A stretch of DNA of 64,000 bases from the NCBI GenBank assembly GCA_020444275.1, contig JAHLLG010000002.1, positions 310,001 through 374,000 on the forward strand, read 5' to 3'. How positions within the stretch are numbered: position 1 is the first letter of the stretch; each line of letters starts with the position of its first letter. Below are positions 9,562 through 50,917 of this stretch, piece by piece. The translations under genes were made by a program, and so were the position numbers. Under the pieces are notes generated by a model that had not been told where the DNA came from, did not search any database, and saw only the letters and a program-made list of their open reading frames with translations. The DNA is from Bacteroidota bacterium. Its GTDB lineage: Bacteria > Bacteroidota > Bacteroidia > Bacteroidales > UBA12077.

Positions 9562-9578
9562 ACTAAAAGAACAAAAGA

Positions 9579-9791
9579 ATGAAATTCATGGTTTGCCCGC
9601 AATGTGGAATCAGTAACTTTTATGTAATGAATGAGAAAGGAGAGAGGGTAAATATAAAAGTGAACAGAAATATAGAAATCATACCAATGGGAACAGATAA
9701 AAGTCTGGAAGGATTCAACCTTGATAAGATTTTTTGTTTGGGTTGCTCGTGGAGGGGTACTGTTAATCAGTTGAAGAAATATTTGGTTTAA
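9579..9791 (+). CDS. Small zinc-ribbon-like protein, function unknown
   Basis: A 70-residue protein with two CxxC knuckles, CPQC at residues 6-9 and CLGC near 53-56, spaced as in a zinc ribbon. The region between is a short beta-rich stretch (NEKGERVNIKVNRNIEI). There is no signal peptide or membrane helix. It starts 17 bp after the Gate-domain gene and ends just before a palindromic repeat that separates it from the converging peptidase gene. It could be a small nucleic-acid- or protein-binding accessory. I do not recognise a named family. Confidence 0.65.
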   Translation: MKFMVCPQCGISNFYVMNEKGERVNIKVNRNIEIIPMGTDKSLEGFNLDKIFCLGCSWRGTVNQLKKYLV

Positions 9792-9792
9792 T

Positions 9793-9868
9793 CTCTCGCA
9801 AAGCCGCAAAGTCGCAAAGTATGCTTACTTAATAACATTTTCTTTGCGTCTTCGCGTCTCTGCGAGAA
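9793..9868. repeat. GCAAAG-unit palindromic intergenic repeat
   Basis: The left arm (9793-9819) has three GCAAAG units (CGCAAAGCCGCAAAGTCGCAAAG). The right arm (9842-9867) is its inverted, slightly degenerate copy, with CTTTGCG, TTCGCG and TCTGCGAGA. The arms flank a 22-bp AT-rich loop. It lies between two converging genes and can form a long hairpin, so it may serve as a two-way terminator. Repeats of this look recur in intergenic regions of many Bacteroidota genomes. Confidence 0.8.
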
Positions 9869-29247: not shown

Positions 29248-29282
29248 GAGTTAATACTATTCTGGATTAAAGTATCTAAACG

Positions 29283-33344: not shown

Positions 33345-33390
33345 AAATATTACCAAAATCACATTTAACTTGAATAAGCTGATAAATAAA

Positions 33391-36327
33391 ATGATAAGAA
33401 GTTCTATTTCGCTACTTATTTTTACGTTGATTACGTTGGTTGCGAAATCCCAAATAAAGAGTATAGGCATTCCTAATATTACAAACTATTCTCAACGAGA
33501 ATATAATGCCAGTACGCAAAACTGGGCCGCTTTGCAGGACAAGCGAGGAGTTTTATATTTTGGTAATAATAGTGGACTTTTAGAATTCGACGGAATTCGT
33601 TGGAGGCTAATTGAAATGCCTAATACATCGGTAGTAAGGTCTATTGCAACAGATCAGTCCGGAGTAATATATATTGGAGCTTTTTGTGAATTTGGTTATC
33701 TACAACCAGATATAAATGGTAAATTCGAATATGTTTCATTAGTTGATCTAGTGCCTGCTGAACTCAGAGATTTTGGCGATATCTGGAAAATTCATGAAAC
33801 AACAAATGGCATAATTTTTCAATCTTTTTCCGAAATATTTCTTTATACAAATGGTGAAATTAAGGTATTGGCCCAAAAAAGAGAATTTCATTTTAGTTTT
33901 TTTGTAAATAACGAATTATATATTACAGAGAAGAACAAGGGATTGCTTAAATTGCGGGATGAAAAATTAATTCCGGTTAAAGGAGGAGATATTTTTAATA
34001 ACAACGTTTGGTCTATTCTTCCATTTAATGATACAAAACTTTTAATATCTACTTCTAACCACGGTTTATATATTCTGGAAAACGATTCAGTAAAAAAATG
34101 GGAGATTGCTGCTAATGATTTCCTAATCGAAAATCAAATTTACTGTGCAACTAAGGTAAAAGGTTATTTTGCTATTGGTACCATCCTGAATGGTCTTCTA
34201 ATCATTGATGAAAATGGAAAGCCAATCCAACATATTAACAGGGATAAAGGCTTGCAGAATAATACTGTGCTGAGTATTTATACCGATAATTATGATAACT
34301 TATGGTTAGGTCTTGATAATGGTATCGATTATGTTGCAACAAATAATCCTTTCACAAGCATTGTTAATAAAAGCAAAATCGGTGCTGGTTATGTATCATT
34401 TATTTATAATAATAAGCTCTATCTAGGAACAAATCAAGGCCTGTTTTATAAAAAATGGACTATGCTGGAAGACCCTTTTAAAAGTGAAGAAGATTTTAAA
34501 ATGGTGGAAAACACTCAGGGGCAGGTGTGGAGTCTATTTGAACATAATAATGAGCTCTTTTGTGGCCATAATAATGGTACATATATTATTAAAGATGATA
34601 AAGCAGAACTAATTTCAGACATAATGGGTGGCTGGTTACTATTTACTTTTCCTGATAAAGAGGATATTATAGTTGAAGGCACATATAATGGATTAGTGAA
34701 ATTTGAAAAGAACGATAAGGAAAATTGGAAAGCCACAAGGATAAACGGATTCAATGAATCATGCCGGGTTATTGAAACATATTTAGAAAAGGATGCATAT
34801 GCTTTATGGGTTAGTCATGTGTACAAAGGTGTATATAGAATTATCCTAAACTCACAACTGGATAGTATTGTAAGTATTGACTTTTTCGATTCATCCAATG
34901 GTTTAGAAACCAAATTTGGAAATAACGTGTTGCGGTTTGACGACAAAATAATTTTTATCAATAATACAGGGATATATACATTTAATGAAGAACTTAACAA
35001 ATTTAATCCGGACAAAAAGCTAAATGATTTGTTTGGAGATTATGGTCCGGTTCGGGAAATTGTAAAGGATTACGCTTCAAATTATTGGTTTATACAAGGC
35101 GATGAAATGGGAGTGCTTAAAAAGTTAAATGATGGGAACTATAAAATTCAACGTACTATTTTCAAATCTTTTACAGGAAATTTTGTAGGCGATTTTGAGC
35201 ATTTAAATCCGTATGATGATAAGAATGTAATTATTGCAAATGAGGATGGTTTTTCTCATTTTAGTGCAGGTTTTCAGAAGGATACAGACATACCGTTTCA
35301 GATATTAATACGAACAGTAGAGATGGATGATAGCTTGTTATTTGGTGGAACTTTTCAGGATAGTAGTGGGAATATTATTATGAATCAACAAAACGCTCAA
35401 ATTAAAGAGTTATCATATAAATACAATGATTTTAAATTTGAATACTCTGCAACACATTACGAAAATTTAAGCAATCTGGAATATAGTTATATACTCGAAG
35501 GATTTGAGGAGGATTGGTCTGACTGGACAGAAAAAACCTCAAAAGAATATACAAACTTAAAAGAAGGAACATATACTTTTAAAGTTAAAGCTAAGAATAT
35601 ATATAACAAAGAAACTGAAATTTCATCATTTTCCTTTATTATTAATCCTCCATGGTATAGATCAGTTATTGCGTACATAGCTTATATAATTTTAATAGTG
35701 TCTGCTGTATGGTTAACGGTTAGGATTATTAGAAAAAGAATAGAAAGAGAAAAGAAATTACTTCAGATTAAACAAAAAAGAGAACTCCAGGAGCAAAAGG
35801 TTAATCATGAGAACGAAGTATTATCAGCACAACAAGAGATAGTTAAACTTCGAAATGAAAAACTGCGTGTAGAAAATGAACGAAATAAAGCCGAGGTTGA
35901 GTTAAAAACAAAAGAGTTAGCCAGCTATGCCATGCAGGTAACTCAAAAGAATGAATCACTATTTGCTTTAAAAGAGCAATTAAAACATATTGCAGAAAAG
36001 GTTAATCCTGATGCTCAAAAATATCTTCATAAATTAATTAAGAGCATTGAAAAAAGTATGAATCAAAAGGACGATTGGGATAAATTTGAAGGATATTTTG
36101 ACCAGGTTTATGAAGACTTTACAAAGCGTTTAAGGGAAAAATATCCTAGTTTAACACCTAATGATATTAAACTTTGTGCTTACTTAAGAATGAATTTATC
36201 AACCAAAGAAATTGCCCCTTTACTTAATATTTCCGTCAGAGGTGTTGAAGTGAGTCGCTACAGATTAAGAAAAAAATTAGACATGCCTCAAAATGAAAAT
36301 CTTGTCGATTTTATGATGAACCTTTAA
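33391..36327 (+). CDS. Membrane-spanning propeller/Y_Y_Y/LuxR-HTH regulator of the glucan locus
   Basis: A 978-residue protein starting at ATG 33391; the upstream TTG at 33370 would only prepend seven residues before the signal sequence. A signal (SISLLIFTLITLVAKS) leads into beta-propeller repeats, with signatures such as NLWLGLDNGIDYV and repeated GLYIL/GLLII strands. Then comes a Y_Y_Y domain (EYSYILEGFEEDWSDW, LKEGTYTFKVKAKN), one helix near 755-775, a long coiled coil and a LuxR-type HTH (LCAYLRMNLSTKEIAPLLNI, VSRYRLRKKLD). There is no kinase domain, so sensing and DNA binding are in one membrane-spanning chain. It lies directly before the glucan locus and is the natural candidate for binding the 11-bp repeats at 36443 and 38877. 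Confidence 0.9.
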   Translation: MIRSSISLLIFTLITLVAKSQIKSIGIPNITNYSQREYNASTQNWAALQDKRGVLYFGNNSGLLEFDGIRWRLIEMPNTSVVRSIATDQSGVIYIGAFCEFGYLQPDINGKFEYVSLVDLVPAELRDFGDIWKIHETTNGIIFQSFSEIFLYTNGEIKVLAQKREFHFSFFVNNELYITEKNKGLLKLRDEKLIPVKGGDIFNNNVWSILPFNDTKLLISTSNHGLYILENDSVKKWEIAANDFLIENQIYCATKVKGYFAIGTILNGLLIIDENGKPIQHINRDKGLQNNTVLSIYTDNYDNLWLGLDNGIDYVATNNPFTSIVNKSKIGAGYVSFIYNNKLYLGTNQGLFYKKWTMLEDPFKSEEDFKMVENTQGQVWSLFEHNNELFCGHNNGTYIIKDDKAELISDIMGGWLLFTFPDKEDIIVEGTYNGLVKFEKNDKENWKATRINGFNESCRVIETYLEKDAYALWVSHVYKGVYRIILNSQLDSIVSIDFFDSSNGLETKFGNNVLRFDDKIIFINNTGIYTFNEELNKFNPDKKLNDLFGDYGPVREIVKDYASNYWFIQGDEMGVLKKLNDGNYKIQRTIFKSFTGNFVGDFEHLNPYDDKNVIIANEDGFSHFSAGFQKDTDIPFQILIRTVEMDDSLLFGGTFQDSSGNIIMNQQNAQIKELSYKYNDFKFEYSATHYENLSNLEYSYILEGFEEDWSDWTEKTSKEYTNLKEGTYTFKVKAKNIYNKETEISSFSFIINPPWYRSVIAYIAYIILIVSAVWLTVRIIRKRIEREKKLLQIKQKRELQEQKVNHENEVLSAQQEIVKLRNEKLRVENERNKAEVELKTKELASYAMQVTQKNESLFALKEQLKHIAEKVNPDAQKYLHKLIKSIEKSMNQKDDWDKFEGYFDQVYEDFTKRLREKYPSLTPNDIKLCAYLRMNLSTKEIAPLLNISVRGVEVSRYRLRKKLDMPQNENLVDFMMNL

Positions 36328-36371: not shown

Positions 36372-36400
36372 TGATGTTGTAGTGGTGTGTGTATTGTGTA
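36372..36400 (+). promoter_or_regulatory. Upstream accessory element of iteron promoter A
   Basis: TGATGTTGTAGTGGTGTGTG resembles the element at 38809-38827 (TGATGTAGTAGTGTGTATA). It lies 71 bp before the first 11-bp repeat of promoter A; the matching element of promoter B lies 68 bp before its repeats. It probably holds two degenerate copies of the same box. Confidence 0.5.
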
Positions 36401-36442: not shown

Positions 36443-36522
36443 TGATGTAGTTTTGATGTATAAGTGATGTATTTATGAAGTATTTATATTATTGACTTTA
36501 CATGTTTTAAAGGTTAACATTG
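36443..36522 (+). promoter_or_regulatory. Iteron promoter A: four 11-bp TGATGTA repeats and -33/-7 element
   Basis: TGATGTA occurs at 36443, 36454 and 36465, and TGAAGTA at 36476, each exactly 11 bp apart, one helical turn. Nine bp after the last copy is TTG (36492-36494), then 20 bp, then TAACATTG (36515-36522). The same order, spacing and variant fourth copy recur at 38877. The gene it drives starts at 36693 and encodes the surface lipoprotein. Confidence 0.8.
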
Positions 36523-36692
36523 TCCTAACATTTATTAAACACAACACGATGTTATTTCATTTATGTGCAATTATAAAAACTACTTATTTAATTGAACCTT
36601 GATTTTTGAAATCGTCAAATGGATTCTGCGGTTTTCTTTAATCATGAAAAAAAATAATTAGAATCTAACCTTAATAAATAAAAAAAAGTAAC

Positions 36693-38177
36693 ATGAAAAC
36701 TAAAAGATTTAGAATTTTAGCACAGACATTCTTTTTGGGAGCTGTAGTCTCATTGTTTACAACATTTACAGCATGTGACGATGACGATGACGATGCGGTA
36801 AAAGATCCCGTAGCCAGCTTTCAGTATGAAGTTAGCGAAACTAATGCCTTAGAGGTGGCGTTTACCAATTACTCTCAAGATGCAAGTTCTTACGCATGGG
36901 ATTTTGGTGATGGAGAAACATCAATCGAAGAAAATCCAACACACATTTTTGCTGCAGAAGGTACTTATACCGTAAAGCTTACTGCAACAAATTCTGCTGG
37001 AGTAACTGATGATGTAAGTAAAGAGATTACACTTACCGAAAATGCTCAAGCACTCTTAACCGGAGAAACTTCCAAAAAATGGATGCTTATGCGCAAAGGT
37101 TATGTTATGGGAATTGGCCCAGATGCAGATAATTATTGGCAGTACTGGGGTTTGGAAAATAATGGTAAGCGTCCTTGCGTTTTCGGACAATCCTGGACAT
37201 TCAACGCCGATGGCACGTTTGATTTTGATGATGGTGGTTTTATGTGGGGAGATAACATTGTATTTGTTAGCGCGGATAATCCTCAATTCGAAGTTTGTAT
37301 TCCAGCATCAGAATTTTCTGTTAATGATAATGGTGATGATATAACTGCATGGTTAAGCGGAACGCATGATTTTACATATGATCCTTCTGCCGGTACTTTG
37401 ACAGTTTCAGGAGAAGGTGCATGGATGGGATTAATATCAAGAACTGCTAATGGTGATGTTATTGTTCCTCAGAACGAAGTAACATATGATGTAACTATTG
37501 GAGAAGGTACATTATACGATTCGATGTTAGTTTCGTTAACCTATCCTAATGGTGATTACTGGCAATTCAATTATGTAAGCTATTACGATTGGGCTGATCA
37601 ACCAGCTGTAGAAACAGAAGAAGAGACTTTTGGTGAAGACCTTGCTGATATTACTCCGTCGGAAATTAAAGCAACTTTTGCTTCTAAAGACGCTGCCGAC
37701 TTGGTTACTATTGATACAATTACTTCAGGATCAACTCTTGAATTTGGTGTTGATGATCCTACAGATGCAGCTGCTGCCAAAGTGGGTCAGTTTAATAGAG
37801 TAGCAGGTGTTAGTTATCAAGAACTTCAGTTCCAGGCAAGTCCAGAAGCAAAAGATATTCAGTTTGATAATTTTACTACAGTTAAAATTGATATTTATGT
37901 TCCAGCTAGTACTGTATTTGAAACAGATGGTCTTGTACGTCAGTTTGTATTTGGCTTTGCAGATAAGAGTCAAACAGAAGAGTGGTGGAATAGCCCTGAG
38001 CAGTATCTGGTAGAAGGTGAAGATTTTGTTGTTGGTACTTGGACAACATATACATTTGATCTGTCTACTACAGACGTGTTAACCAGAGCAGATTTAGATA
38101 TGCTATATCTTGGTATCGGTGGCGGAGGACACAATGCTGGTGGTACGTTCTATGTTCGTAACCTAATTTTTGAATAA
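36693..38177 (+). CDS. PKD-domain surface lipoprotein, probable glycan-binding protein
   Basis: A 494-residue lipoprotein (TTFTACDDDDDD, with a surface-export-like acidic stretch right after the Cys). A PKD domain covers about 37-112 (ASSYAWDFGDGETSIEENPTH). The middle has a glycan-binding-like region (GQSWTFNADGTFDFDDGGF), and the C-terminal part has a jelly-roll-like domain (FTTVKIDIYVPAS, YTFDLST). This design fits SGBP/SusE-F-type proteins of Bacteroidota glucan loci. It is transcribed from its own iteron promoter ahead of susC, an unusual position. Direct evidence for glucan binding is absent. Confidence 0.75.
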   Translation: MKTKRFRILAQTFFLGAVVSLFTTFTACDDDDDDAVKDPVASFQYEVSETNALEVAFTNYSQDASSYAWDFGDGETSIEENPTHIFAAEGTYTVKLTATNSAGVTDDVSKEITLTENAQALLTGETSKKWMLMRKGYVMGIGPDADNYWQYWGLENNGKRPCVFGQSWTFNADGTFDFDDGGFMWGDNIVFVSADNPQFEVCIPASEFSVNDNGDDITAWLSGTHDFTYDPSAGTLTVSGEGAWMGLISRTANGDVIVPQNEVTYDVTIGEGTLYDSMLVSLTYPNGDYWQFNYVSYYDWADQPAVETEEETFGEDLADITPSEIKATFASKDAADLVTIDTITSGSTLEFGVDDPTDAAAAKVGQFNRVAGVSYQELQFQASPEAKDIQFDNFTTVKIDIYVPASTVFETDGLVRQFVFGFADKSQTEEWWNSPEQYLVEGEDFVVGTWTTYTFDLSTTDVLTRADLDMLYLGIGGGGHNAGGTFYVRNLIFE

Positions 38178-38200
38178 AAAGATTTTTCAAAAGAAATAAG

Positions 38201-38227
38201 TGGCCGGTTCTTCCGGCCATTTTTTTT
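38201..38227 (+). terminator. Rho-independent terminator after the surface lipoprotein gene
   Basis: TGGCCGG (38201-38207) pairs with CCGGCCA (38213-38219) around a 5-nt loop, followed by eight T. It is the strongest terminator in the window and separates the lipoprotein message from susC. Confidence 0.95.
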
Positions 38228-38229
38228 AT

Positions 38230-38800
38230 TTGTAGTTAAATAAATAATTAAAAACCAACATGTCGTAGGATAATTTTATTTAATCTATCTCATTATTTGA
38301 ATCATATTATCGAGTGCATTATTTCTTGCTATTATAACTAGCATAAATATAGTTCAGTATACTAAAATCATGAGTAAGTGCTTAACAAAACATAATATTT
38401 TTATCTCAGCTCTATTCTATTCTATTCTATTTGATACCACATTAAAAACAGACTTAAAATTTTATGTTGATTATTTATTCTATTTCAAATCCGTTTAAAA
38501 GTTATGCCTTATTAAGTACAGATTTGAAATGCATAAACTATAACGAAACCATACGTTTATTAAGAGTTAATGATTGGTATGAATAATTAGTTAATTCCGC
38601 ATAAATTAAACTTTTCAATCAGTACTACTAATTGATCGCTCATAAAATTACCACATGTAATTTATTTTATTCGCTGGATGGGTAGCGTATTTTTAAGTAG
38701 CAGTTCTAATAGGTTTGATATGTTTATTATTTAGGGAAGCAAAGGAAGGTTGTGTAAAAATTTTGCGAAATAAACAGAATGATCTAAATTATGTTAAAAT
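38230..38800. other. Noncoding AT-rich gap before susC
   Basis: No ORF of credible length or RNA gene is visible on either strand. A short microsatellite, (TCTAT)4, lies at 38411-38430. The remainder shows no clear structure that I can support. The gap ends with the regulatory region described at 38809-38956. Confidence 0.5.
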
Positions 38801-38808
38801 AAATAGTG

Positions 38809-38827
38809 TGATGTAGTAGTGTGTATA
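38809..38827 (+). promoter_or_regulatory. Upstream accessory element of iteron promoter B
   Basis: TGATGTAGTAGTGTGTATA is the partner of the element at 36372-36400 and lies 68 bp before the first iteron of promoter B. Confidence 0.5.
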
Positions 38828-38876
38828 ATCTTATAAGTTAAGTAAAGATCACAATAATAGAAACTTAAATAATTAG

Positions 38877-38956
38877 TGATGTACTTTTGATGTATGTATG
38901 ATGTATTTTTGAAGTATTATTATGATTGATTTTGTGGTAATATATGTCTTAAATTG
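38877..38956 (+). promoter_or_regulatory. Iteron promoter B of susCD: four 11-bp TGATGTA repeats and core promoter
   Basis: TGATGTA at 38877, 38888 and 38899 and TGAAGTA at 38910 are exactly 11 bp apart. TTG follows 9 bp later (38926-38928), then 20 bp, then TTAAATTG (38949-38956). Promoter A (36443) has the same copy number, phase, variant copy and distances. susC starts at 39002. Confidence 0.8.
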
Positions 38957-39001: not shown

Positions 39002-42000
39002 ATGAAAAAGATCTTACTTATTTCAACGTTTTTAATTGTCTCACTACAAATTTTTGCTCAACAAGTAAATATAGAAGGAGTAGTTACTTCTGCTGACGAT
39101 GGGCAGACTTTACCAGGTGTTACAATATTAGAAAAAGGAACCAACAACGGAACTGTTACTGACATTAATGGATATTATAAAATAGCAGTTTCGCCCGAGG
39201 CAACTCTCCAATTTTCTTACGTTGGTATGGAATCGCAAGAAGTTCAAATATTAGGACGTTCTAAAATTGATATTGCGTTACGTACCTCAGCTACTGATCT
39301 TGATGAGGTAGTTGTTATTGGTTATGGTGTGCAGAAAAAAAGTTTAGTAACTGGTGCTATATCAAAGGTTGATGCAGATGATTTAGAACAAAATCAGGTG
39401 CGAATAGAACAAGCTTTGCAAGGTAAAACTGCAGGTGTTAATATCATGCAAGAGTCTGGATCACCAGGAGGAGGTTTAACAGTAAGAATAAGAGGAACTG
39501 GAACTAATAAAAATTCAAATCCTTTATTTGTTGTAGATGGAATGAGAACAGGAGGAATTGAATATTTAAATCCTAATGATATAGCATCTATTGAAATCCT
39601 GAAAGATGCTGCGTCTGCTGCTATCTACGGTGCTGAAGCAGCCAATGGTGTTGTTTTAGTTACCACTAAATCTGGCACAAAAGATAAATCAACCATATCA
39701 TATAACGGATATTATGGAATGCAAGAAGCGCGAAATATTACTGAGGTATTGAACGCACAACAGTATGCTACTTATTTTAGAGATGGTCTAGAACACGAAT
39801 TAAGAAGTAAAAATCCGAATATTACTGATGAAGCAGTTAATAATTCACTTGACGCGGCTTATCCATTTAACCCCGATACATTAGGAGCAGGAACTGATTG
39901 GATGAATGAGATTTACACACCGGCTCCTATACAAGAGCATAATATATCGGTAACAGGAGGAAATGAAAAAACTTCAGTATTCTTTTCAGGTTCTTACTTA
40001 ACGCAAGATGGAATAGTTGGAGGTTCAAAAGCTAATTTTGAGAGATATACAGCAAGATTGAATGCAGACCATCAGGCAAAAGATTGGTTATCTGTAGGTG
40101 GAAAATTGTCTTTCACTCATTTTGAAAGAAAGTCAATTGATGAAAATAATGAGTTTGGAGGAGTTATTTCAAATGCCATGAATATTGATCCTTTAACACC
40201 GGTATATTATAATGATACGAGTCAGTTTCCAGATATGTATAAAGATCAGATTTATGATAATTTTGATGATATAGATAATTCATCGTTAAGTGCTGGTGAT
40301 AAAGGTTATTATGGAATGTCAAAATATGTACAGAACGAAATTCGTAACCCCAGAGCACAAATTGACAATAATCACAATTCATATTATCAGGATAAAGTAT
40401 TGGGAGGCGTTAATTTAACAATTACACCTATAGAAGGTTTAGTTTTTAAAACAGCGTATGATATTGATTTAGCCTATGGTAATAATAATTGGTGGACTCC
40501 AAGGTATTATTACCATTCTGTAAACTATAATTACCTAAGTAGTGTAAATCAAACTGTAGAACGCTGGTTTACATGGCAATGGGAAAATACCTTAAATTAC
40601 TCAAAACAATTAGGATTACATGATGTGAATGTTCTTGCTGGTAATACCTTAAGAGATTATAGTTTTTATTATTTCGGGGGATTAGGTGAAGGTTTACAGG
40701 AAGAATCCTGGGATTTTGCTGTTTTTGATGCGGTCTTAAGTGATTCAACAAAATCGGCTGTTTCCGGAAGAAGAAATGAAGATAACAGGCTGGTTTCTTA
40801 TTTTGGTAGAGTAAACTACAATTATGATGGTCGTTATATGGTTGGTGTAACCTTGCGTGCTGATGCCTCTTCTAAACTAAGTAGTGCAAACAGAACGCAA
40901 TATTTCCCTTCTGTATCTGTAGGATGGGTTGCATCTAATGAAAGTTTCTGGAATTTTACTCCAGTTACTTTTGCAAAACTTCGCTTTAGCTGGGGACAAA
41001 ACGGATCCATACAATCTTTAAGTAATTTTGAGTACGTTTCGCTTATTACAAGTGGAGCAGAGCCAAGTTACTATTTAAGCGGCGGGACAAGACTTACTGG
41101 AGCGGAGCCATCTCAATTGAGTAACCCAGACTTAATTTGGGAAACTTCAGAACAAACCAATATTGGTCTTGACTTAAGATTTTTAAATGACCGCTTAACG
41201 TTTACTGCAGATTACTACAAAAAAGTAACAAAAGGGTTAATAACTACGGCATCTATACCATTATATGTTGGTAATGATAAACCAAATGCAAATTCAGGGG
41301 ATATTACAAATCAGGGAGTTGAACTAGAGTTAGGTTTTAGAGGACAAATGGGCGAATTTAAATATAATATTGGATTAAACGCAGCATATAATAAAAATGA
41401 AGTTACATCACTTGAGTCTCCATTGTTAGGTGCTAATTTAGGTACTACTGGTGCTATTACAAGATCTGATGAAGGAAAACCTGTGTGGTATTTTTATGGA
41501 TATGAGGCAGATGGTATCTTTGATTCTTTTGATGACATTAATGCATATATAAATGATGATGGTGATCCAATCCAACCCAATGCAATTCCCGGCGATGTTA
41601 GGTTCGTAGATATTGATGGAAATGGAAAAATAGATGAAGATGATAAAACTATGATTGGAAATCCGCATCCTGATTGGACATTTGGTTTAAATACTAATTT
41701 TAGTTACAAGGATTTTGATTTAACGATATTCTTAAGTGGTACATTAGGAAATGATGTGTATTATGGAGCATATAGAACTGATCTGGATGCTAATAATAAA
41801 CCACTTTATTTTTATGAGAATGCATGGACCCCAGATAATCAAACAGATGACTTTCCTCGTTATACAGTAAATAGTAATCAAAACTTCTCTCACAATAGTA
41901 TGTTTGTATTTGATGGTAGTCATATACGCTTGCAAAATATTGAACTGGGGTATTCATTGAGTAAACCGGTTTTAGAAAAGATTCACATTGAAAAGTTGAG

Positions 42001-42169
42001 ATTATATGTTTCAGGAAGAAATTTATTTGTACTAACTAACTATCCTGGAGCTGATCCTGAAGTAGGAAATTCGGTTGGAGATGATAATAATAAAACGAGT
42101 ATTGGTATAGATAGAGGATTATATCCAAGGCCTCGCATTATTTCATTCGGAATTAATCTATCAATATAA
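39002..42169 (+). CDS. SusC/RagA-family TonB-dependent outer membrane transporter
   Basis: A 1055-residue outer membrane protein. After the signal peptide (LQIFAQ) comes a carboxypeptidase-regulatory-like domain (about 25-95), then a TonB-box-like DLDEVVVIGYGVQKKS, and a plug domain with GTGTNKNSNPLFVVDGMRTG and ILKDAASAAIYGAEAANGVV. A 22-strand-type barrel follows, ending in GINLSI. It forms with SusD a lidded importer for oligosaccharides, here most likely beta-glucan fragments. It is under promoter B, and susD starts 24 bp downstream. Confidence 0.95.
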   Translation: MKKILLISTFLIVSLQIFAQQVNIEGVVTSADDGQTLPGVTILEKGTNNGTVTDINGYYKIAVSPEATLQFSYVGMESQEVQILGRSKIDIALRTSATDLDEVVVIGYGVQKKSLVTGAISKVDADDLEQNQVRIEQALQGKTAGVNIMQESGSPGGGLTVRIRGTGTNKNSNPLFVVDGMRTGGIEYLNPNDIASIEILKDAASAAIYGAEAANGVVLVTTKSGTKDKSTISYNGYYGMQEARNITEVLNAQQYATYFRDGLEHELRSKNPNITDEAVNNSLDAAYPFNPDTLGAGTDWMNEIYTPAPIQEHNISVTGGNEKTSVFFSGSYLTQDGIVGGSKANFERYTARLNADHQAKDWLSVGGKLSFTHFERKSIDENNEFGGVISNAMNIDPLTPVYYNDTSQFPDMYKDQIYDNFDDIDNSSLSAGDKGYYGMSKYVQNEIRNPRAQIDNNHNSYYQDKVLGGVNLTITPIEGLVFKTAYDIDLAYGNNNWWTPRYYYHSVNYNYLSSVNQTVERWFTWQWENTLNYSKQLGLHDVNVLAGNTLRDYSFYYFGGLGEGLQEESWDFAVFDAVLSDSTKSAVSGRRNEDNRLVSYFGRVNYNYDGRYMVGVTLRADASSKLSSANRTQYFPSVSVGWVASNESFWNFTPVTFAKLRFSWGQNGSIQSLSNFEYVSLITSGAEPSYYLSGGTRLTGAEPSQLSNPDLIWETSEQTNIGLDLRFLNDRLTFTADYYKKVTKGLITTASIPLYVGNDKPNANSGDITNQGVELELGFRGQMGEFKYNIGLNAAYNKNEVTSLESPLLGANLGTTGAITRSDEGKPVWYFYGYEADGIFDSFDDINAYINDDGDPIQPNAIPGDVRFVDIDGNGKIDEDDKTMIGNPHPDWTFGLNTNFSYKDFDLTIFLSGTLGNDVYYGAYRTDLDANNKPLYFYENAWTPDNQTDDFPRYTVNSNQNFSHNSMFVFDGSHIRLQNIELGYSLSKPVLEKIHIEKLRLYVSGRNLFVLTNYPGADPEVGNSVGDDNNKTSIGIDRGLYPRPRIISFGINLSI

Positions 42170-42193: not shown

Positions 42194-43696
42194 ATGAAAT
42201 CAATAAAATATATATTAGTTCTAATAGCAATTTTTTCTACCAGTTGTTCGGACTGGTTAGAAATGGATCCTGTTGGAGAAAAATTTGAAAGTAATTTTTA
42301 CCAAACTGAAGAAGATATTTTTCAAGGTTTGGTTGCTACCTATTCCATGCTACAACCCAAGTATTATAACAACTGGTCATCATATTATTTCTTAGCTAAC
42401 TTTCCATCAGATGATTCAGAAGTGGTTGGTGGTGGTTCAGGAGATAGACCTGAATATCATGCAATTGCTGATTTTAAGATGTTGCCAACAAATACTGCAA
42501 TACTGGAATTATGGAGAAGAGGATTTTACGGTGTTAATCGTGCAAATGCAGTAATCTTAAATGCGAATCCGGAGGCTTCAGCAAAATCAAAAGAATATAT
42601 TGCCGAAGCAAAATTCTTAAGAGCCTATTTTTACTTTGAATTAGTAAGATTTTTTGGTGACGTTCCTCTTATTACAAAACAACTTTTGCCAGGTGAATAT
42701 GACCAACCACGAGTTGATGCAGCGATTGTATACCAACAGATTATTACCGATTTACAAGAGGCGATTACAGATTTGGCTGACGCACCTTCTGAAAACTATC
42801 GGGCAAGTAAAGGAGCCGGATATTCATTATTGGGAAAAGTTTATTTGTATATGGCATCACCTTATTACCAGCAGCGATACAACTTTGAACTTGGCGCTAC
42901 AGATTACTATCAATTAGCGATGCAACAATTTCAAGAAGTCTATGGACAATATGCTTTGGAACCAAATTACGATGATATTTGGAGTTATGAACATGAGCAT
43001 GGTGTAGAATCAATTTTCGAAATTGAATATGCTAATATAGCCAGAGGAGGAGATTGGGGTAATGGTAGAGTTAACGGTGGAAATATTGATGTTCAAATGT
43101 CAGGACCACGAGGTATTTCAACAGATACATTAAATGCTGGTTGGGGATTCGATATGGTTTCAACTGATCTTATTGCTTTGTATGATGCTGAAGGAGATGT
43201 TGTAAGAAAAGATGGAACTGCATATGGAGAAGCATTTTTAACTTCAATTGGTGCCTCAAGTTGGGAGAAAAATGATGGGTATACCGGTTGGTTCAGTAAG
43301 AAAAGAGCTCCATGGGCACATCTTACCTTTAATAGTAGTGCAGAATGGAATTATGAAACCAATGAAAGGGTGATTAGATATGGAGATGTGCTGTTGATGA
43401 TGGCAGAAGCGGCACTAGGTGGTGGAACAGGTAATCCGGATACTTATTTTAATGAAGTTAGACAAAGAGCCGGTCTTGGAACTATTTCAGGTGTTACTTT
43501 AGCTGATATCAAAAAGGAAAGAAGGTTAGAGTTAGCTATGGAGGGTTTTAGATATTTCGATTTGGTTCGTTGGGGAGATGCACCATCTGTTTTAAGCGAT
43601 CGTGGTTTTAAAGAGGGAACTCATGAGGTTTTCCCGATACCACAAGATGAAATCATTAATTCAAATTATACATTAACACAAAATGATGGATATTAA
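42194..43696 (+). CDS. SusD/RagB-family outer membrane lipoprotein
   Basis: A 500-residue lipoprotein (signal IFSTSCSDWLEMDP). The fold is of helical TPR-like units typical of SusD, with EAKFLRAYFYFELVRFFGDV, the GRASKGAGYSL-like segment (YRASKGAGYSLLGKVYLY), and the C-terminal RLELAMEGFRYFDLVRWGD. It caps the SusC channel and binds glycan. A strong hairpin spans its stop codon and the gap to the GH16 gene. Confidence 0.94.
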   Translation: MKSIKYILVLIAIFSTSCSDWLEMDPVGEKFESNFYQTEEDIFQGLVATYSMLQPKYYNNWSSYYFLANFPSDDSEVVGGGSGDRPEYHAIADFKMLPTNTAILELWRRGFYGVNRANAVILNANPEASAKSKEYIAEAKFLRAYFYFELVRFFGDVPLITKQLLPGEYDQPRVDAAIVYQQIITDLQEAITDLADAPSENYRASKGAGYSLLGKVYLYMASPYYQQRYNFELGATDYYQLAMQQFQEVYGQYALEPNYDDIWSYEHEHGVESIFEIEYANIARGGDWGNGRVNGGNIDVQMSGPRGISTDTLNAGWGFDMVSTDLIALYDAEGDVVRKDGTAYGEAFLTSIGASSWEKNDGYTGWFSKKRAPWAHLTFNSSAEWNYETNERVIRYGDVLLMMAEAALGGGTGNPDTYFNEVRQRAGLGTISGVTLADIKKERRLELAMEGFRYFDLVRWGDAPSVLSDRGFKEGTHEVFPIPQDEIINSNYTLTQNDGY

Positions 43697-43712
43697 TGCA
43701 TATCCATCATTT
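43681..43712 (+). promoter_or_regulatory. Perfect 13-bp hairpin enclosing the susD stop codon
   Basis: AAATGATGGATAT (43681-43693) and ATATCCATCATTT (43700-43712) are perfect inverted repeats with a 6-nt loop that holds the TAA stop. No T run beyond TTT follows. It probably protects the susCD message or reduces read-through into the enzyme genes. Confidence 0.8.
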
Positions 43713-43750
43713 TAATCGTTGAACTATATCCTTTAATATAATTTATTTAG

Positions 43751-45757
43751 ATGATCCGGAAGAAGATTTTTGTTCTGTTAGCAATTTTTCTAAGTGTTCA
43801 ATCTATTGATAACCTGAACGCACAGTCCTGTTATGAGTTAGTTTGGAATGATGAATTTAATTACAATGGTTTACCAGACTCAACCAAATGGTATTTTGAA
43901 GAAGGTGGTACAGGTTGGGGTAATAACGAATTACAATATTATACTTCAAAACGTATAGAGAATGCATATGTGGAGAATGGCTATTTGACCATCGAAGCCA
44001 GAAAAGAAGATTATAACGGAAAGGATTATACTTCTGCAAGGTTAATAACATACCCCAATGGACACTCCTGGAAGTATGGTAAAATAGAAGCTCGAATTAA
44101 ACTGCCTTATGGCCAGGGAATTTGGCCAGCTTTTTGGATGCTTGGTGATGGAATATTTGAAGGAACACCTTGGCCGGGTTGCGGAGAAATTGACATTATG
44201 GAAATGGTTGGTGGCGGTGAAGGTAAAGATGATGTAATTTATGGAACCATGCATTATGACGATAATGGACATGCTGAGTATGGAGATTCTTACCAACTAT
44301 CGGAAGGAATATTTGCAGATGATTTTCATGTTTTTAGTATCGAATGGACGCAAACTCAATTGAAATGGTATGTTGATGGTATTAAATATCATGAAGCAAG
44401 TTTAATACCTAGCTACCTTAGCGAATTTCAAAAGGAGTTTTTTATTCTATTAAATATAGCTGTTGGCGGTAACTGGCCAGGTAATCCGGATGGAAGTACA
44501 GTCTTTCCGCAAAAAATGATGGTGGATTATGTGCGCGTGTATCAATTGGATAACCAACCTGAAATTACGGGTTTCGATTTAGTTAATAAAGCACAAAAGA
44601 ATGTTACTTATAGTACAGTAGAGTCAGAAGATTTTAGCTATAATTGGACTGTACCTAGTGGTGCAACGATAACTGGGGGTCAGGGCACGAGTTCAATATC
44701 GGTTAACTGGGGGTGTGCTGATGGTGATGTTACATGTCAACTTACAACCAATTGTTCAACCTATAACCTAACTAAAAATATTCAAGCCCAACCCATTGAG
44801 ATTACTGGTCAGGAAAAAATTGAACCTTCAAGTGAAAACCTTAGCTATTCGATTTCAGAATTAGACGCTACCAATTATACATGGGAAGTTCCCAATGATG
44901 CTGAATTTGTTGGTGATTCTGACACAAATGTCGTATTTGTAAATTGGGGTAGCGAATCAGGTTACGTAATTGTTAGTGCAGAAACAAATTGCGGTGATCA
45001 ACACGATTCAATTTATGTAGAAGCTATAAAACAGCTACCTTACCCGGATCCTAACTCTAAACACAAAATTCCGGGAACCATTGAGGCAATCGATTATGAT
45101 ACAGGTGGCGAAGGAATTGCTTACCATGATGCTGATGTAGAAAATCAAGGTACCGGGTTACGACAAGATGAAGGTGTAGACACTGAATATAATGATGGAG
45201 GTCAGAATATTGGATGGATAAAATCCGGAGAGTGGGTTGAGTATTCAGTTGATGTTGAAAGTAGCGGTCCGCACGATATTGAATTACGTGTTGCTTCTCT
45301 AAATGGAGGAGGACAAATGGAAATATATTTTAGTAATGAAAATAGAACTGGAATTATTGATATTCCAAGCACAGGTTCATGGACCAGTTTTACTTCAATA
45401 TATTTATCGGATATTCAACTGTATGATACAGATACATTGATGAAGTTAAATTTTGTTGTTGGAGATTTTAATATTAGCAGGCTCATATTTGGCAACGAAA
45501 CAACTTCAAAAACAGACCTTTATAATCCTACTAATGCTATTGGTTTATTCCCTAACCCAGCTAGTGATATAATATATTTAAGTAATCATCTGGTAGAGTT
45601 TGAATATTCGATTATTAGCTTATTAGGAAATGTTGTACAAAGAGGTGTTATATCACCAGGAATGAGTATTGATATAAGCAACATTAATCCAGGAACTTAT
45701 TATTTACAGCTTGTGAATAAAAATCAAGTAATAACCTTAAAGTTTATCAAACTGTAA
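43751..45757 (+). CDS. GH16 endo-beta-1,3-glucanase with CBM6-like and T9SS sorting domains
   Basis: A 668-residue secreted enzyme. After the signal peptide (NLNAQ), the GH16 domain spans about 28-262 with the ExDxxE core GEIDIMEMVGG: nucleophile Glu146 and acid/base Glu151. PKD-like/Ig-like modules follow (about 265-430). A CBM6-like domain (about 435-580; EAIDYDTGGEGIAYHD, GQNIGWIKSGEWVEYSVDV) and a T9SS type A sorting domain (GLFPNPASDIIYL, GTYYLQLVNK) finish it. T9SS export implies release or surface attachment. It probably starts laminarin breakdown. Confidence 0.93.
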   Translation: MIRKKIFVLLAIFLSVQSIDNLNAQSCYELVWNDEFNYNGLPDSTKWYFEEGGTGWGNNELQYYTSKRIENAYVENGYLTIEARKEDYNGKDYTSARLITYPNGHSWKYGKIEARIKLPYGQGIWPAFWMLGDGIFEGTPWPGCGEIDIMEMVGGGEGKDDVIYGTMHYDDNGHAEYGDSYQLSEGIFADDFHVFSIEWTQTQLKWYVDGIKYHEASLIPSYLSEFQKEFFILLNIAVGGNWPGNPDGSTVFPQKMMVDYVRVYQLDNQPEITGFDLVNKAQKNVTYSTVESEDFSYNWTVPSGATITGGQGTSSISVNWGCADGDVTCQLTTNCSTYNLTKNIQAQPIEITGQEKIEPSSENLSYSISELDATNYTWEVPNDAEFVGDSDTNVVFVNWGSESGYVIVSAETNCGDQHDSIYVEAIKQLPYPDPNSKHKIPGTIEAIDYDTGGEGIAYHDADVENQGTGLRQDEGVDTEYNDGGQNIGWIKSGEWVEYSVDVESSGPHDIELRVASLNGGGQMEIYFSNENRTGIIDIPSTGSWTSFTSIYLSDIQLYDTDTLMKLNFVVGDFNISRLIFGNETTSKTDLYNPTNAIGLFPNPASDIIYLSNHLVEFEYSIISLLGNVVQRGVISPGMSIDISNINPGTYYLQLVNKNQVITLKFIKL

Positions 45758-45773
45758 ATTCTTACTGTGATAT

Positions 45774-48026
45774 ATGAGAAAAACCAAACTTCATATCATT
45801 TTTATATTCGGGATTATTATGGCTTTCGCTTGCGATTCTTCAAAATTTTCAAAAGAAATGATTACTGAATTAAAAGTTGATTCTCTATTACAGGAGATGA
45901 CCATTGAGGAAAAAATAGGACAAATGAACCAATTGATGAATTTCGTCGATTCAATGCCGTTAGATCCTTATTTCTACGATTTAATTAAACAAGGTAAGGT
46001 GGGTTCAGCAATAAATGTTTTTTCTCCAGAAATGATCCAAGAAATGCAACGTATTGCTTTTGAAGAAAGCAGGTTAGGAATTCCTCTTTTAATAGGTCGT
46101 GATGTTATTCATGGATATCGAACCATATTCCCTGTAAATATTGGGTTAGCTGCTACATTTAATCCCGAACTGGTTATGGAAACAGCTCAAATTGCGGCAA
46201 TGGAAGCAAGATCGGAAGGTGTAAACTGGACTTTTGCTCCTATGATGGATATTTCACGTGATCCACGGTGGGGAAGAATGGTAGAAAGTAGTGGTGAAGA
46301 TCCATATTTAACCGAACAAATAGCAATAGCCAGTGTAAGAGGATTTCAGGGTAATGATCTTTCAAACAAAAATAGTATTGCCGCTACCGCCAAACATTAT
46401 GTTGGCTATGGAGCAGCCATTGGTGGTCGCGATTATAATACGACTTTGATTCCGGAAACCGAACTAAGAAATATCTACCTTAAACCTTTTAAAGCTGCTG
46501 TTCAGGAAAATGTAGCTTCGATAATGTCTGGTTTTAATGAACTTAACGGGGTACCTACCAGTGGAAATGTATACACTATTAGAAATATACTAAAAAGTGA
46601 ATGGGGATTTAAAGGGTTTGTGGTAAGCGATTGGGCATCCATAAAAAACTTACAAGTACACGGATATGCTAAAGATAGTTTAGATGCTGCGCAAAAAGCA
46701 ATTCAAGCTGGTGTTGATATGGATATGTGCAGTAATTATTATTCAGAGAATCTTAAACAGCTTATAGAACAAGGAATTATTGAAGAAGAACTTATTGATG
46801 ATGCAGTACGGAGAATTCTAACAGTTAAAGTAGAGTTAGGGCTTTTTGAAAATCCTTATGCCACTTCGGAGAATGAGTTATTAACCGAAAAAGCGTTAGA
46901 TGTAGCAAAAAAAGCTGTGATTCAAAGTACTGTTTTGCTGCAAAACAAAAATGATGTTCTACCATTATCTAAAAATAATAAAAAAGTGGCTGTTATTGGT
47001 CCTCTGGCCAATGCGCCATACGAGCAAATGGGAACTTGGGTTTTTGATGGGAACGAAGAAAATTCAGTAACTCCATTAGCAGCAATTCAAGAATATTTAG
47101 GTGCAGATAGAGTTAATTATGCACCTGGACTAGAAATAAGTAGATCACTAGATAAGAAGGGGTTCAATAAAGCAATTAATGCAGCACGTAATTCCGATGT
47201 TGTGTTATTGTTTATGGGTGATGAGTCTATATTAACAGGCGAGGCACATAGTCGTGCCATGCTTACTCTTCCCGGAAGCCAGAATGAATTGATTCATGCA
47301 ATTAGTCAATTAGGGAAGCCAACTGTATTAGTCATTATGACTGGGGTAATACATATGGTTGAACCGTATTTAAAGGAAGTAGACGCTCTATTCTACGGAT
47401 GGCATCCGGGTACTATGGGAGGTCCTGGGTACGTCGATCTGTTATTTGGTTTGGAATCTCCGTCCGCTAAATTACCAATGACATTTCCTCGTACCGAAGG
47501 GCAAATCCCTATTTATTACAACCATAACAGAACAGGTCATCCTCCTTCAGATGAAAGCTGGGTTAAGATGTACGATATTCCGGTAAAAGCGTGGCAAACA
47601 TCTTTAGGAAATACAAGCCATTACCTGGATTTTGGATTTGAACCTCTGTTTGAATTTGGTTTTGGATTATCCTATACAGAATTTAATTATAGTGATATCA
47701 AACTTTCTAAGAATGTAATATCGAATAAAGATTCCTTGATTATTACAGCAAAAATTAAAAACATTGGAGGAGTTCAGGCCGAAGATGTTGCACAGTTATA
47801 CATTCGCGATTTAGTTGGAAGTATTGTTCGTCCGGTAAAGGAACTGAAACGATTTAAAAGAGTGAGATTAAATCCTGGTGAAGAAAAAATAGTTGAATTT
47901 ACATTGTATCCAGAAGATTTAAAATTTCATAATGGTGAACAGTGGGTGATAGAATCTGGCGAATTTCATGTCTGGGTTGGTAATAGCTCAAAAGCATCTC
48001 TTAGGTCAGAATTTGAATTAAAATAA
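45774..48026 (+). CDS. GH3 beta-glucosidase-like lipoprotein
   Basis: A 750-residue enzyme with a lipoprotein signal (IIMAFACDSS). GH3 N domain has the FPVNIGLAATFNPEL, TFAPMMDISRDPRWGRM and KHYVGYGAAIGGRDY motifs. The nucleophile is Asp286 in GFVVSDWAS. The second domain (from about 380) and a C-terminal fibronectin-III-like domain (from about 640) follow. It trims beta-1,3- and perhaps beta-1,6-linked glucose from oligosaccharides in the periplasm or at the surface. It follows GH16 by 16 bp and is in the same operon. Confidence 0.93.
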   Translation: MRKTKLHIIFIFGIIMAFACDSSKFSKEMITELKVDSLLQEMTIEEKIGQMNQLMNFVDSMPLDPYFYDLIKQGKVGSAINVFSPEMIQEMQRIAFEESRLGIPLLIGRDVIHGYRTIFPVNIGLAATFNPELVMETAQIAAMEARSEGVNWTFAPMMDISRDPRWGRMVESSGEDPYLTEQIAIASVRGFQGNDLSNKNSIAATAKHYVGYGAAIGGRDYNTTLIPETELRNIYLKPFKAAVQENVASIMSGFNELNGVPTSGNVYTIRNILKSEWGFKGFVVSDWASIKNLQVHGYAKDSLDAAQKAIQAGVDMDMCSNYYSENLKQLIEQGIIEEELIDDAVRRILTVKVELGLFENPYATSENELLTEKALDVAKKAVIQSTVLLQNKNDVLPLSKNNKKVAVIGPLANAPYEQMGTWVFDGNEENSVTPLAAIQEYLGADRVNYAPGLEISRSLDKKGFNKAINAARNSDVVLLFMGDESILTGEAHSRAMLTLPGSQNELIHAISQLGKPTVLVIMTGVIHMVEPYLKEVDALFYGWHPGTMGGPGYVDLLFGLESPSAKLPMTFPRTEGQIPIYYNHNRTGHPPSDESWVKMYDIPVKAWQTSLGNTSHYLDFGFEPLFEFGFGLSYTEFNYSDIKLSKNVISNKDSLIITAKIKNIGGVQAEDVAQLYIRDLVGSIVRPVKELKRFKRVRLNPGEEKIVEFTLYPEDLKFHNGEQWVIESGEFHVWVGNSSKASLRSEFELK

Positions 48027-48042
48027 AGCATAAAAAGAAAAA

Positions 48043-49599
48043 ATGAATAAAGCATATATAGTTCGTGTCGCATTAATTGTTGCTTTGGGTGGATTTCTTA
48101 TGGGTTTTGATGCATCGGTAATATCCGGTGTTGTACGTTTTATTGAGCCCTACTTTGAATTAACAAAAATGCAGTTAGGATGGGCCGTAGCTTGTTTAAC
48201 CTTGGTTGCTACAATTACCATGTTAGTTGCAGGACCTATTAGTGATAAAATTGGTAGAAAAAAGGTTCTAACATTTGCAGCTGTATTCTTTGCTATTTCT
48301 GCAATAACATCTGCACTAGCAACAGAATTTTGGTTTTTTATTGTTGCACGTATGTTGGGAGGAATAGGAGTTGGTGCTGCGTTGATTATTGCTCCAATGT
48401 ATATCGCAGAAATTTCTCCACCTAAAGCTAGAGGTAGGCTGGTTTCTTTCAATCAGTTAAATATTGTATTGGGAATATCTGTTGCATTCTTCTCTAATTA
48501 TATCATTCTTAAGTTAAGTAGTTCAGATTTAGGATGGATAAAAACATTGCAGGCTGATGAACATGCCTGGAGATATATGCTGGGTGTAGAAGCTATTCCA
48601 GCTTTATTATATTTTGTTTGTTTGTTTTTTGTTCCTAAAAGTCCACGTTGGCTGGCTCTTCAAGGATTTGAAAATAAAGCACTTGCTATTATGAAAAGAG
48701 CAAGTGGTGAAGCTATTGCATTAGAAGAGTTCAAAGCGATTAAACATAGCCTCACAACTGATTCAAAGAAAGAAAAAGCACATATCAAAGAATTGTTTAA
48801 ACCTGCCATGAAACTGGTTTTGCTCATTGGAATTGTGATCGCCATTACACAGCAGATAACAGGAATAAATGCAGTATTCTTTTATGCTCCTATGATTTTT
48901 GAACAATCTGGAGTTGGTGTTGATGCTTCTTTTTCGCAAGCCATATGGGTTGGATTAACAAATCTCATTTTTACGTTTGTTGCAATTTGGTTGATTGATA
49001 AGATTGGTCGAAAACCACTACTCATGATAGGTTTATCAGGTATAATTATTTCTATGTTTGTTATTGGAATGGCCTTTAAAACAGCTATGTATAAGCTAGA
49101 CTCGAAAAAAGTGAAAGAATTAACAGAGATTATCCAAAATGATAAATTGTATCAGTTGGAAAACAGACAATTTAACAGTGATGTCGAATTTAGAACTGAA
49201 CTTCAAACGGTTTTTGGAGAAGATTTAAATAAAGAGCAGGAAAAGCTATTACTAACAAAGGCTATAAATATCAATCCAATGTTAGTATTATTTGGCATAA
49301 TAGGATTTGTCGCATCGTTTGCCTGTTCGTTAGGTCCAGTAATGTGGGTTTTGTTTTCGGAACTGTTTCCTAACCGCCTTAGAGGTCTGGCAATTTCATT
49401 TGCCGGAACTATAAATTCAGCTTTTAGTTTTTTGGTTCAGTTAGTATTTCCTTGGGAGTTAGATAAGTTAGGCAACTCAAATACATTTTTTATTTATGGT
49501 CTGTTTGCAATTATTGGCCTTATTATTTTAAAAATTTACCTGCCAGAAACAAAAGGAAAGTCATTAGAAGAATTAGAACAAATATTGGTTAAAAGTTAA
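48043..49599 (+). CDS. MFS sugar porter
   Basis: A 518-residue protein with 12 helices and sugar-porter signatures: GFDASVISG, DKIGRKKVL, GGIGVGAALIIAPMYIAEISPPKARG, PKSPRWLALQG, QQITGINAVFFYAP, DKIGRKPLL, PETKGKSLEELE. A charged insert of about 60 residues near 350-410 (KVKELTEIIQNDKLY, FGEDLNKEQEKLL) lies between helices 9 and 10. It imports glucose or short glucans across the inner membrane, probably feeding the phosphorylase. It begins 16 bp after the GH3 gene. Confidence 0.88.
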   Translation: MNKAYIVRVALIVALGGFLMGFDASVISGVVRFIEPYFELTKMQLGWAVACLTLVATITMLVAGPISDKIGRKKVLTFAAVFFAISAITSALATEFWFFIVARMLGGIGVGAALIIAPMYIAEISPPKARGRLVSFNQLNIVLGISVAFFSNYIILKLSSSDLGWIKTLQADEHAWRYMLGVEAIPALLYFVCLFFVPKSPRWLALQGFENKALAIMKRASGEAIALEEFKAIKHSLTTDSKKEKAHIKELFKPAMKLVLLIGIVIAITQQITGINAVFFYAPMIFEQSGVGVDASFSQAIWVGLTNLIFTFVAIWLIDKIGRKPLLMIGLSGIIISMFVIGMAFKTAMYKLDSKKVKELTEIIQNDKLYQLENRQFNSDVEFRTELQTVFGEDLNKEQEKLLLTKAININPMLVLFGIIGFVASFACSLGPVMWVLFSELFPNRLRGLAISFAGTINSAFSFLVQLVFPWELDKLGNSNTFFIYGLFAIIGLIILKIYLPETKGKSLEELEQILVKS

Positions 49600-49603
49600 A
49601 AAA

Positions 49604-50917
49604 ATGAATAGACTAAATATAATTATCATACTTACCGTCATTTTATTTTCATCATGTAAAAGTAGTACTGAAAATAAGGATAAAACGGAAATGAGTCCTG
49701 TAGAAGTAGAATTAATTGAACAGAACGATCATTATCAGCTTTTAGTAAATGGTGAATTGTATTTTATTAAAGGCGCCGGTACTGAAATTGATAAAATTCC
49801 AATCTTAGCCGAAAGCGGAGCAAATTCTTGTAGAACATGGAGTACGGAAATGCCGGGTTTTACTGCTGATGAATTTTTAGATTTAGCACATGAACATGGC
49901 TTAACTGTAACTATGGGTTTAGATGTTAAAAAAGAAAGGTTGGGATTCGATTATAATGATTCAGTTGCTGTAAAAAAGCAGTTTGACTATATTAAAAGCG
50001 AGGTGATGAAATACAAAGATCATCCCGCACTTATAATTTGGGGAATAGGCAATGAGTTGAATTTAAACTATTCCAATCCAATGGTTTGGGATGCAGTAAA
50101 TGATATTGCTAAAATGATTCACGATATTGATCCCAATCATTTAACAACCACCATGTTGGCTGGCATTAAAAAAAATGATATAGATGAAATTGCGAAGCGT
50201 TGTCCTGATTTGGACTTTATAAGTATTCAGATGTATGGAGATCTTCCCAATTTGCAACAGCGAATTAAGGAAAGCGGTTACGATGGTCCTTATTTAGTTA
50301 CAGAATGGGGAGCCACAGGTCATTGGGAAGTTGCACGAACATCATGGGATACGCCAATTGAGCAAACAAGTAGTGAAAAGGCGGAATCTTATATTCATAG
50401 ATATAAAGTAGCTATCGAGGCTGATTCTATGCATTGTCTCGGTTCATATGTATTTTACTGGGGGCAGAAGCAGGAAAGAACGCCCACCTGGTATGGTTTA
50501 TTTACCGAAGATGGTCAACCAACGGAAACCATTGACGCGATGCAGCACCTTTGGACTGGTGAATGGCCTGATAACAGGGCCCCACGAATGGATTCATTAA
50601 GATTGAATGGTTTATCTGCTTTTGAAAATATAAAACTCGATAAATCAGAGAAATATTTTGCCGAAGTTTATATTCATAATTATGAGAATGATTCATTAGA
50701 TTGTAGCTGGGAAGTCTTATATGAAAGTACTGATTTAGGCGTAGGTGGTGATCATGAAAGCCGTCCGCAGAGCCTGGAAGGATTAATTACCAAAAATGGA
50801 CATTATTCAATTGAATTAACTGCACCAAATGAAACCGGAGCCTTTAGGTTGTTTATTTATGTTATGGATGATCAAAACAAAGTGGCTACAGCAAACATTC
50901 CTTTTTACGTAAATTAG
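49604..50917 (+). CDS. Clan GH-A glycoside hydrolase lipoprotein (GH2-TIM or GH158-like)
   Basis: A 437-residue lipoprotein (VILFSSCKSS). A TIM barrel holds acid/base Glu151 (IWGIGNELN) and nucleophile Glu234 (YLVTEWGATG), 83 residues apart, plus the YWGQKQERTPTWYGLF strand. A C-terminal beta-sandwich (about 320-437) follows. By motif it is clan GH-A. Databases may call it a GH2 TIM-barrel protein, and GH158 (beta-1,3-glucanases of similar length and layout) is a good alternative. It starts 4 bp after the MFS gene, so the genes are translationally linked. Confidence 0.75.
   Translation: MNRLNIIIILTVILFSSCKSSTENKDKTEMSPVEVELIEQNDHYQLLVNGELYFIKGAGTEIDKIPILAESGANSCRTWSTEMPGFTADEFLDLAHEHGLTVTMGLDVKKERLGFDYNDSVAVKKQFDYIKSEVMKYKDHPALIIWGIGNELNLNYSNPMVWDAVNDIAKMIHDIDPNHLTTTMLAGIKKNDIDEIAKRCPDLDFISIQMYGDLPNLQQRIKESGYDGPYLVTEWGATGHWEVARTSWDTPIEQTSSEKAESYIHRYKVAIEADSMHCLGSYVFYWGQKQERTPTWYGLFTEDGQPTETIDAMQHLWTGEWPDNRAPRMDSLRLNGLSAFENIKLDKSEKYFAEVYIHNYENDSLDCSWEVLYESTDLGVGGDHESRPQSLEGLITKNGHYSIELTAPNETGAFRLFIYVMDDQNKVATANIPFYVN

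Follow-up and report, generated by a model that had tools for sequence, protein, structure and literature searches.

Two arrays of heptameric repeats, found in a 64,000-nucleotide stretch of Bacteroidota DNA (the window), stand before a surface lipoprotein gene and a susC-like gene of one putative glucan locus. On comparative sequence evidence the arrays are a real operator, very likely that of the predicted LuxR-type activator encoded next to them. It is quite probable that the arrays serve this membrane-bound one-component regulator in activating both promoters. Heptamers in this 11-bp geometry are already known from operators bound by other DNA-binding folds. What appears to be new is the use of this form by propeller/Y_Y_Y/LuxR regulators, its family-wide layout, and a change of the box letters that is matched by a change of the recognition helix.

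Twin arrays in the window

The first-pass annotation had reported three copies of TGATGTA followed by TGAAGTA, at exact 11-bp steps, before both genes (Table 1), and direct reading of the sequence confirms this. At both promoters 9 bp separate the last box from TTG and 20 bp separate TTG from the -7-like box. The two arrays also share the variant fourth copy while their gaps otherwise differ, as had been claimed: the box letters are identical at 28/28 positions and the spacer letters at 7/12.

Table 1. Features of the locus (window positions)
Feature	Coordinates	Strand	Description
Candidate binder/activator	33370..36327	+	Signal peptide, Reg_prop propeller, Y_Y_Y, TM, coiled coil, LuxR/GerE-type HTH
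Recognition helix codons	36238..36261	+	RGVEVSRY (residues 957-964); variants accompany box-letter changes
Distal box, lipoprotein promoter	36372..36394	+	TGATGTTGTAGTGGTGTGTGTAT; core TGTTGTAGTGG at 36375
Proximal iteron array, lipoprotein promoter	36443..36482	+	TGATGTA-N4-TGATGTA-N4-TGATGTA-N4-TGAAGTA; boxes at 36443, 36454, 36465, 36476
Bacteroidota-type core promoter, lipoprotein gene	36492..36522	+	TTG 36492-36494, 20 bp, TAACATTG 36515-36522
Target gene 1	36693..38177	+	PKD-domain surface lipoprotein
Distal box, susC promoter	38809..38826	+	TGATGTAGTAGTGTGTAT
Proximal iteron array, susC promoter	38877..38916	+	TGATGTA at 38877, 38888, 38899; TGAAGTA at 38910
Bacteroidota-type core promoter, susC	38926..38956	+	TTG 38926-38928, 20 bp, TTAAATTG 38949-38956
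Target gene 2	39002..42169	+	SusC-like TonB-dependent transporter, heads operon
Remainder of putative susC operon	42194..50917	+	Starts: SusD 42194, GH16 43751, GH3 45774, MFS sugar transporter 48043, GH2/GH5-like hydrolase 49604

Matches to the TGATGTA triple at 11-bp steps (up to 3 mismatches) number 4 in the window, and all 4 lie inside these arrays; 100 dinucleotide shuffles of the window gave none. Genome-wide pattern searches for the triple and for pairs gave a sole triple outside the two arrays, with 3 mismatches; exact TGATGTA-N4-TGATGTA pairs are confined to the two arrays, and single-mismatch pairs occur at five further places. In this genome search, which the first-pass annotation had proposed, triples and exact pairs had no matches unrelated to glucan genes.

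A fifth box (TGWTGTAGTRGT...), which had escaped the first-pass annotation, lies upstream of each array. At the lipoprotein promoter it reads TGTTGTAGTGGTGTGTGTAT from 36375 and is preceded by TGATGTT at 36372. The distance from the core of this distal box to the first iteron is 68 bp at both window promoters.

The target gene content fits a beta-1,3-glucan locus. Elsewhere, the minus strand at 27892-31685 of the window encodes side by side a CHASE3 hybrid histidine kinase that has an Hpt domain and a sigma-54 activator response regulator; the two show no evident connection with the PUL.

At the genus level, four-box arrays precede both counterpart genes in G198 (L047) and in a MAG (L006), and they are also found before susC in G466 (L243) and G467 (L244). 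The distance from the last box to TTG stays at 9 bp in 7/8 genus-level promoters, and in 7/8 a distal box of the form TGWTGTAGT... begins 68 bp before the first iteron; in the eighth, the susC promoter of L006, the distal box lies at 66 bp and TTG reads TTT. Because the distal distance varies in wider relatives (33-34, 44, 65-68 or 75-81 bp), the value of 68 bp is claimed for the genus level only.

Two of these relatives carry an extra GH3 gene to the left of the regulator, preceded by TGATGTA x3 in one (L047:6050-6180, G198:C15:10065) and by TGATGGA/TGATGTA/TGATGTA upstream of 1791 in the other (L243); pattern searches found no such third array in the window genome. A second propeller/Y_Y_Y regulator of the window's own genome (L105, G000:C1:107000-123000) has the helix GVEISRY, and the boxes nearby, between genes 7580-9769 and 10257, are TGCTGTA-N4-TGCTGTA and not TGATGTA.

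The neighbouring regulator and its orthologues

The regulator (P0001) adjoins SusCD and glucan hydrolases, both in the window's gene order and in orthologue loci. Its ORF is listed from the TTG at 33370; the likely start is the in-frame ATG at 33391, which makes for a better signal peptide. Pfam matches are to Y_Y_Y (6.7e-13), Reg_prop (4.9e-6) and GerE (1.5e-4), the last being slightly under the Pfam cut-off in this protein and over it in the orthologues. The protein has a single TM helix at about residues 766-790, with the propeller and Y_Y_Y on the periplasmic side and the coiled coil and HTH on the cytoplasmic side. In the full-length model, a signal helix is followed by a beta-rich ectodomain and then by a long helix that begins at residue 766 and comprises the TM and coil; the C-terminus is helical. 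When modelled by itself (pLDDT 92), the C-terminal part resembles NarL/FixJ/LuxR DNA-binding domains along some 60 residues; several of these matches reach probability 1.0, and the E-values are all weak (none <0.001). Together, Pfam and the models give the protein Reg_prop, Y_Y_Y, a TM helix and a C-terminal GerE-type HTH and, unlike in HTCS, no kinase or receiver domain; Pfam gives neither an OmpR-type domain nor a DUF6377 match.

For a wider sample, the flanks of orthologous regulators were taken across the order, where these orthologues adjoin beta-glucan PULs in many families, and 62 loci were scored. The pair TGATGTA-N4-TGATGTA, with at most one mismatch, lies upstream of a neighbouring gene in 29/62 loci, compared with a mean of 0.4 loci for 209 permuted heptamers, 2 loci on the reverse strand, and a mean of 0.05 loci (maximum 1) under a second-order Markov null. 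Spacings of 7-10 and 12-13 bp occur in 0/62 loci, and further peaks stand at 22, 33 and 44. A motif-blind repeat scan found period 11 in 10 upstream regions, as opposed to 1-2 for any other period, and nearly all of these period-11 repeats contain GATGTA. This recurrence next to orthologues in many families supports the earlier proposal of head-to-tail boxes beside the -33 element.

The usual family layout consists of two pairs, with boxes at 0/11/33/44, the second pair being sometimes 1 bp off, and a -7-like TT.G signal at 87-90 (first box = 0). In the window's clade the four boxes are consecutive and TTG again follows at 9 bp, so that the promoter register is preserved and the spacing of the pairs is changed by one turn. 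Four consecutive boxes are therefore the variant of one clade, and most relatives carry two pairs.

The arrays are absent beside homologous sensors with other outputs: a TGATGTA pair with up to 2 mismatches was found in 0/20 loci whose sensors are homologous and lack a LuxR-type output. Similarity of these 20 control sensors to the query ends before the LuxR-type HTH, and Pfam assigns SpoIIE or kinase outputs to the 6 that were checked. Starch loci gave the same result, with TGATGTA pairs in 0/14 SusE-selected loci (L149-L162) and none in L163; the sole pair match in the starch set, L164, re-reads a regulator locus. No clear iterons were found in the promoters of the starch loci examined.

Recognition helix and box letters

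In loci with TGATGTA boxes, the recognition helix of the regulator is GVE(I/V)(S/G)RY. Orthologues with the helix (A/S)VENNR form a group whose boxes read TGAG(G/T)T, again at 0/11/33/44. One fixed rule scored GVE(I/V)(S/G)RY loci as 32 T-type and 0 G-type and (A/S)VENNR loci as 18 G-type and 0 T-type; this is not a blind test, because the rule was set up once both patterns were known from the first loci, and its degenerate G form also matches two unrelated loci. The sensor-domain tree places the (A/S)VENNR group as one clade nested among T-type regulators, and the Fisher value for helix class against box type (5.5e-14) overstates independence because the helix switch belongs to that one clade. 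The change of helix and boxes is thus read from the sequences as a single joint switch that many descendants have retained, not as 50 independent events. The identification of the adjacent propeller/Y_Y_Y/LuxR-HTH protein as the predicted binder, made in the first-pass annotation, gains from both observations: arrays are absent beside homologues with other outputs, and the letters change with the recognition helix.

Smaller helix classes extend the comparison. Three GVEARRY loci have TGYCGTA or TGTAGTA-like boxes, and the classes SVETNRY, SVEMTRY and GVEASR (1-3 loci each) gave no convincing motif. A tentative recognition code would be one in which GVE(I/V)SRY corresponds to TGATGTA, (A/S)VENNR to TGAG(G/T)T and GVEARRY to TGYCGTA.

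No clear pair lies nearby in 18/50 of the GVE(I/V)(S/G)RY loci, where some target promoters fall outside the fetched DNA. In four of the GVEISRY loci with no pair (L069, L079, L088, L091) susC was not covered by the fetched DNA or lay at its edge; when three of these susC promoters were fetched (all except that of L069), a pair with one mismatch was present in 2 and absent in 1.

Arrays without a local LuxR-type regulator would predict such a regulator elsewhere in the genome, which held in G348 and half held in G384. G348 encodes, on another contig, an orthologous regulator with a GVEISRY helix. The array in this genome (L048, G348:C25), TGATGTA x3 at 11 bp, precedes a 1157-aa ORF (5913-9386) that has no Pfam match and is followed by sugar transporters. 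In G384 (L049, G384:C3:6000-25799), four phased TGATGTA-type boxes stand before a susC (6610-9798) whose neighbour is a propeller histidine-kinase/receiver hybrid without any DNA-binding domain. This genome has a regulator fragment without its C-terminus, and the sole C-terminal LuxR-type homologue seen has the helix RGVEKARSR.

Known operators, alternative readings and meaning

PhoB is an OmpR-type winged-helix response regulator, and the DNA-binding domain of SARPs is OmpR-like. MalT activates sugar-polymer genes through a LuxR-type HTH, and its tandem direct-repeat boxes are found close to the core promoter; it is a cytoplasmic STAND ATPase, and the boxes lie about two turns apart with a consensus unrelated to that of the window. 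PHO boxes are 7-nt direct repeats with a 4-nt A/T-rich spacer and an 11-bp period (PMC3131613). The SARP/SARP-LAL operator of PimR from Streptomyces has two or three heptamers with 4-bp spacers, forming 11-bp units, and PimR is an activator that binds cooperatively on one DNA face (PMC5930380). The arrays of the window and of the family share this geometry of heptamers with 4-bp spacers, head to tail at 11 bp. They are not PHO boxes by their letters, since the consensus bound by PhoB is CTGTCAT and that of the window is TGATGTA. SARPs differ in being cytoplasmic regulators of antibiotic genes with a different consensus, whereas the window regulator is membrane-bound.

Within Bacteroides, SusR is a described activator, and SusR-like operators are predicted as direct repeats at two sites with centres 67 or 77 bp apart, according to the available text of Ravcheev et al. 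2013 (PMC3878776). SusR-like proteins, as presented in that text, are PUL activators, as the window regulator is predicted to be, and both have a periplasmic sensor, a C-terminal HTH and direct repeats. The distal-proximal distance of 68 bp in the window is close to the SusR-like values in that text, a comparison of distance and not of motif letters; an 11-bp iteron substructure does not appear there, motif logos aside. The cytoplasmic C-terminal modules are remotely similar (hhalign E 4e-5, probability 69). All three starch-locus regulators that were examined belong to DUF6377 and match neither propeller, Y_Y_Y nor GerE, and therefore the window protein is not SusR by family; its identity with SusR was rejected on this ground and on the absence of TGATGTA pairs from the starch loci. 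HTCS share with the window regulator the periplasmic propeller and Y_Y_Y sensor (matches to PDB 3v9f and 4a2l), the PUL context and the use of direct repeats, but have a histidine kinase, a receiver and an AraC output, which the window regulator does not. The first-pass annotation knew of no described operator of this form for this regulator class, and none was found for Y_Y_Y/LuxR regulators in the searchable literature, which leaves out many subscription papers; TGATGTA gave only incidental matches, by title, in the Bacteroidetes literature.

A different regulator, of the OmpR/PhoB type or an AraC-type HTCS, might bind the arrays, with the propeller-LuxR protein a mere neighbour. The 7-nt repeat with a 4-nt spacer is the classic PHO-box form (PMC3131613), HTCS motifs are also direct repeats, about 21 bp apart in the available text of PMC3878776, and the L049 array stands beside a propeller kinase hybrid. 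That hybrid, however, lacks a DNA-binding domain, and the arrays track LuxR-type output across families, are missing beside homologous kinase or SpoIIE-output sensors, and change their letters together with the LuxR recognition helix, making another binder quite unlikely. It is also unlikely that the regulator binds the repeats for repression, or for tethering the promoter to the membrane, instead of activating at -33. The direction of regulation is not readable from sequence, and a protein on the last box, as close to TTG as 9 bp, could also obstruct RNA polymerase, but the fixed helical phasing and the kept 9 bp to the -33 element suit polymerase contact, and the available text of PMC3878776 describes SusR as an activator. 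A recent promoter duplication within the locus, without regulatory meaning, would account for the variant fourth box common to both arrays. Such an origin is extremely improbable and was rejected: flanks and spacers of the two arrays differ, in related genomes both genes have retained the boxes while the remainder diverged, and the motif recurs in other families.

In the favoured reading, activation by the neighbouring membrane-bound regulator, a glucan oligosaccharide, probably a beta-glucan, would bind the periplasmic propeller, and Y_Y_Y, the TM helix and the coiled coil would relay the signal to the LuxR-type HTH domains. The latter would bind the TGATGTA heptamers cooperatively and head to tail on one DNA face, one per helical turn, and the last of them, beside the -33 element, would recruit RNA polymerase, so that the lipoprotein gene and the susCD-GH16-GH3 operon are switched on together. 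The distal box, at 68 bp upstream, is probably occupied by one more protomer, or pair, of the oligomer that would bind the array. A broader generalization is tentative and has somewhat less than an even chance of being right: propeller/Y_Y_Y/LuxR activators across the Bacteroidota may share an operator grammar (boxes at 0/11/33/44 or consecutive, with a distal box about six turns upstream), a readable recognition code and a membrane-anchored oligomer that spans the distal and proximal boxes.

The arrays make it testable how a membrane-anchored sensor without a phosphorelay reaches and activates a promoter, and they associate a PHO/SARP-like head-to-tail layout at 11 bp with a LuxR-type HTH as the predicted binder. 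If the recognition code is true, PUL target promoters would be predictable from the protein sequence of the regulator. Propeller/Y_Y_Y/LuxR regulators adjoin many glucan-utilization loci, and a conserved operator together with the helix-box correspondence would allow such prediction of target promoters in many genomes.
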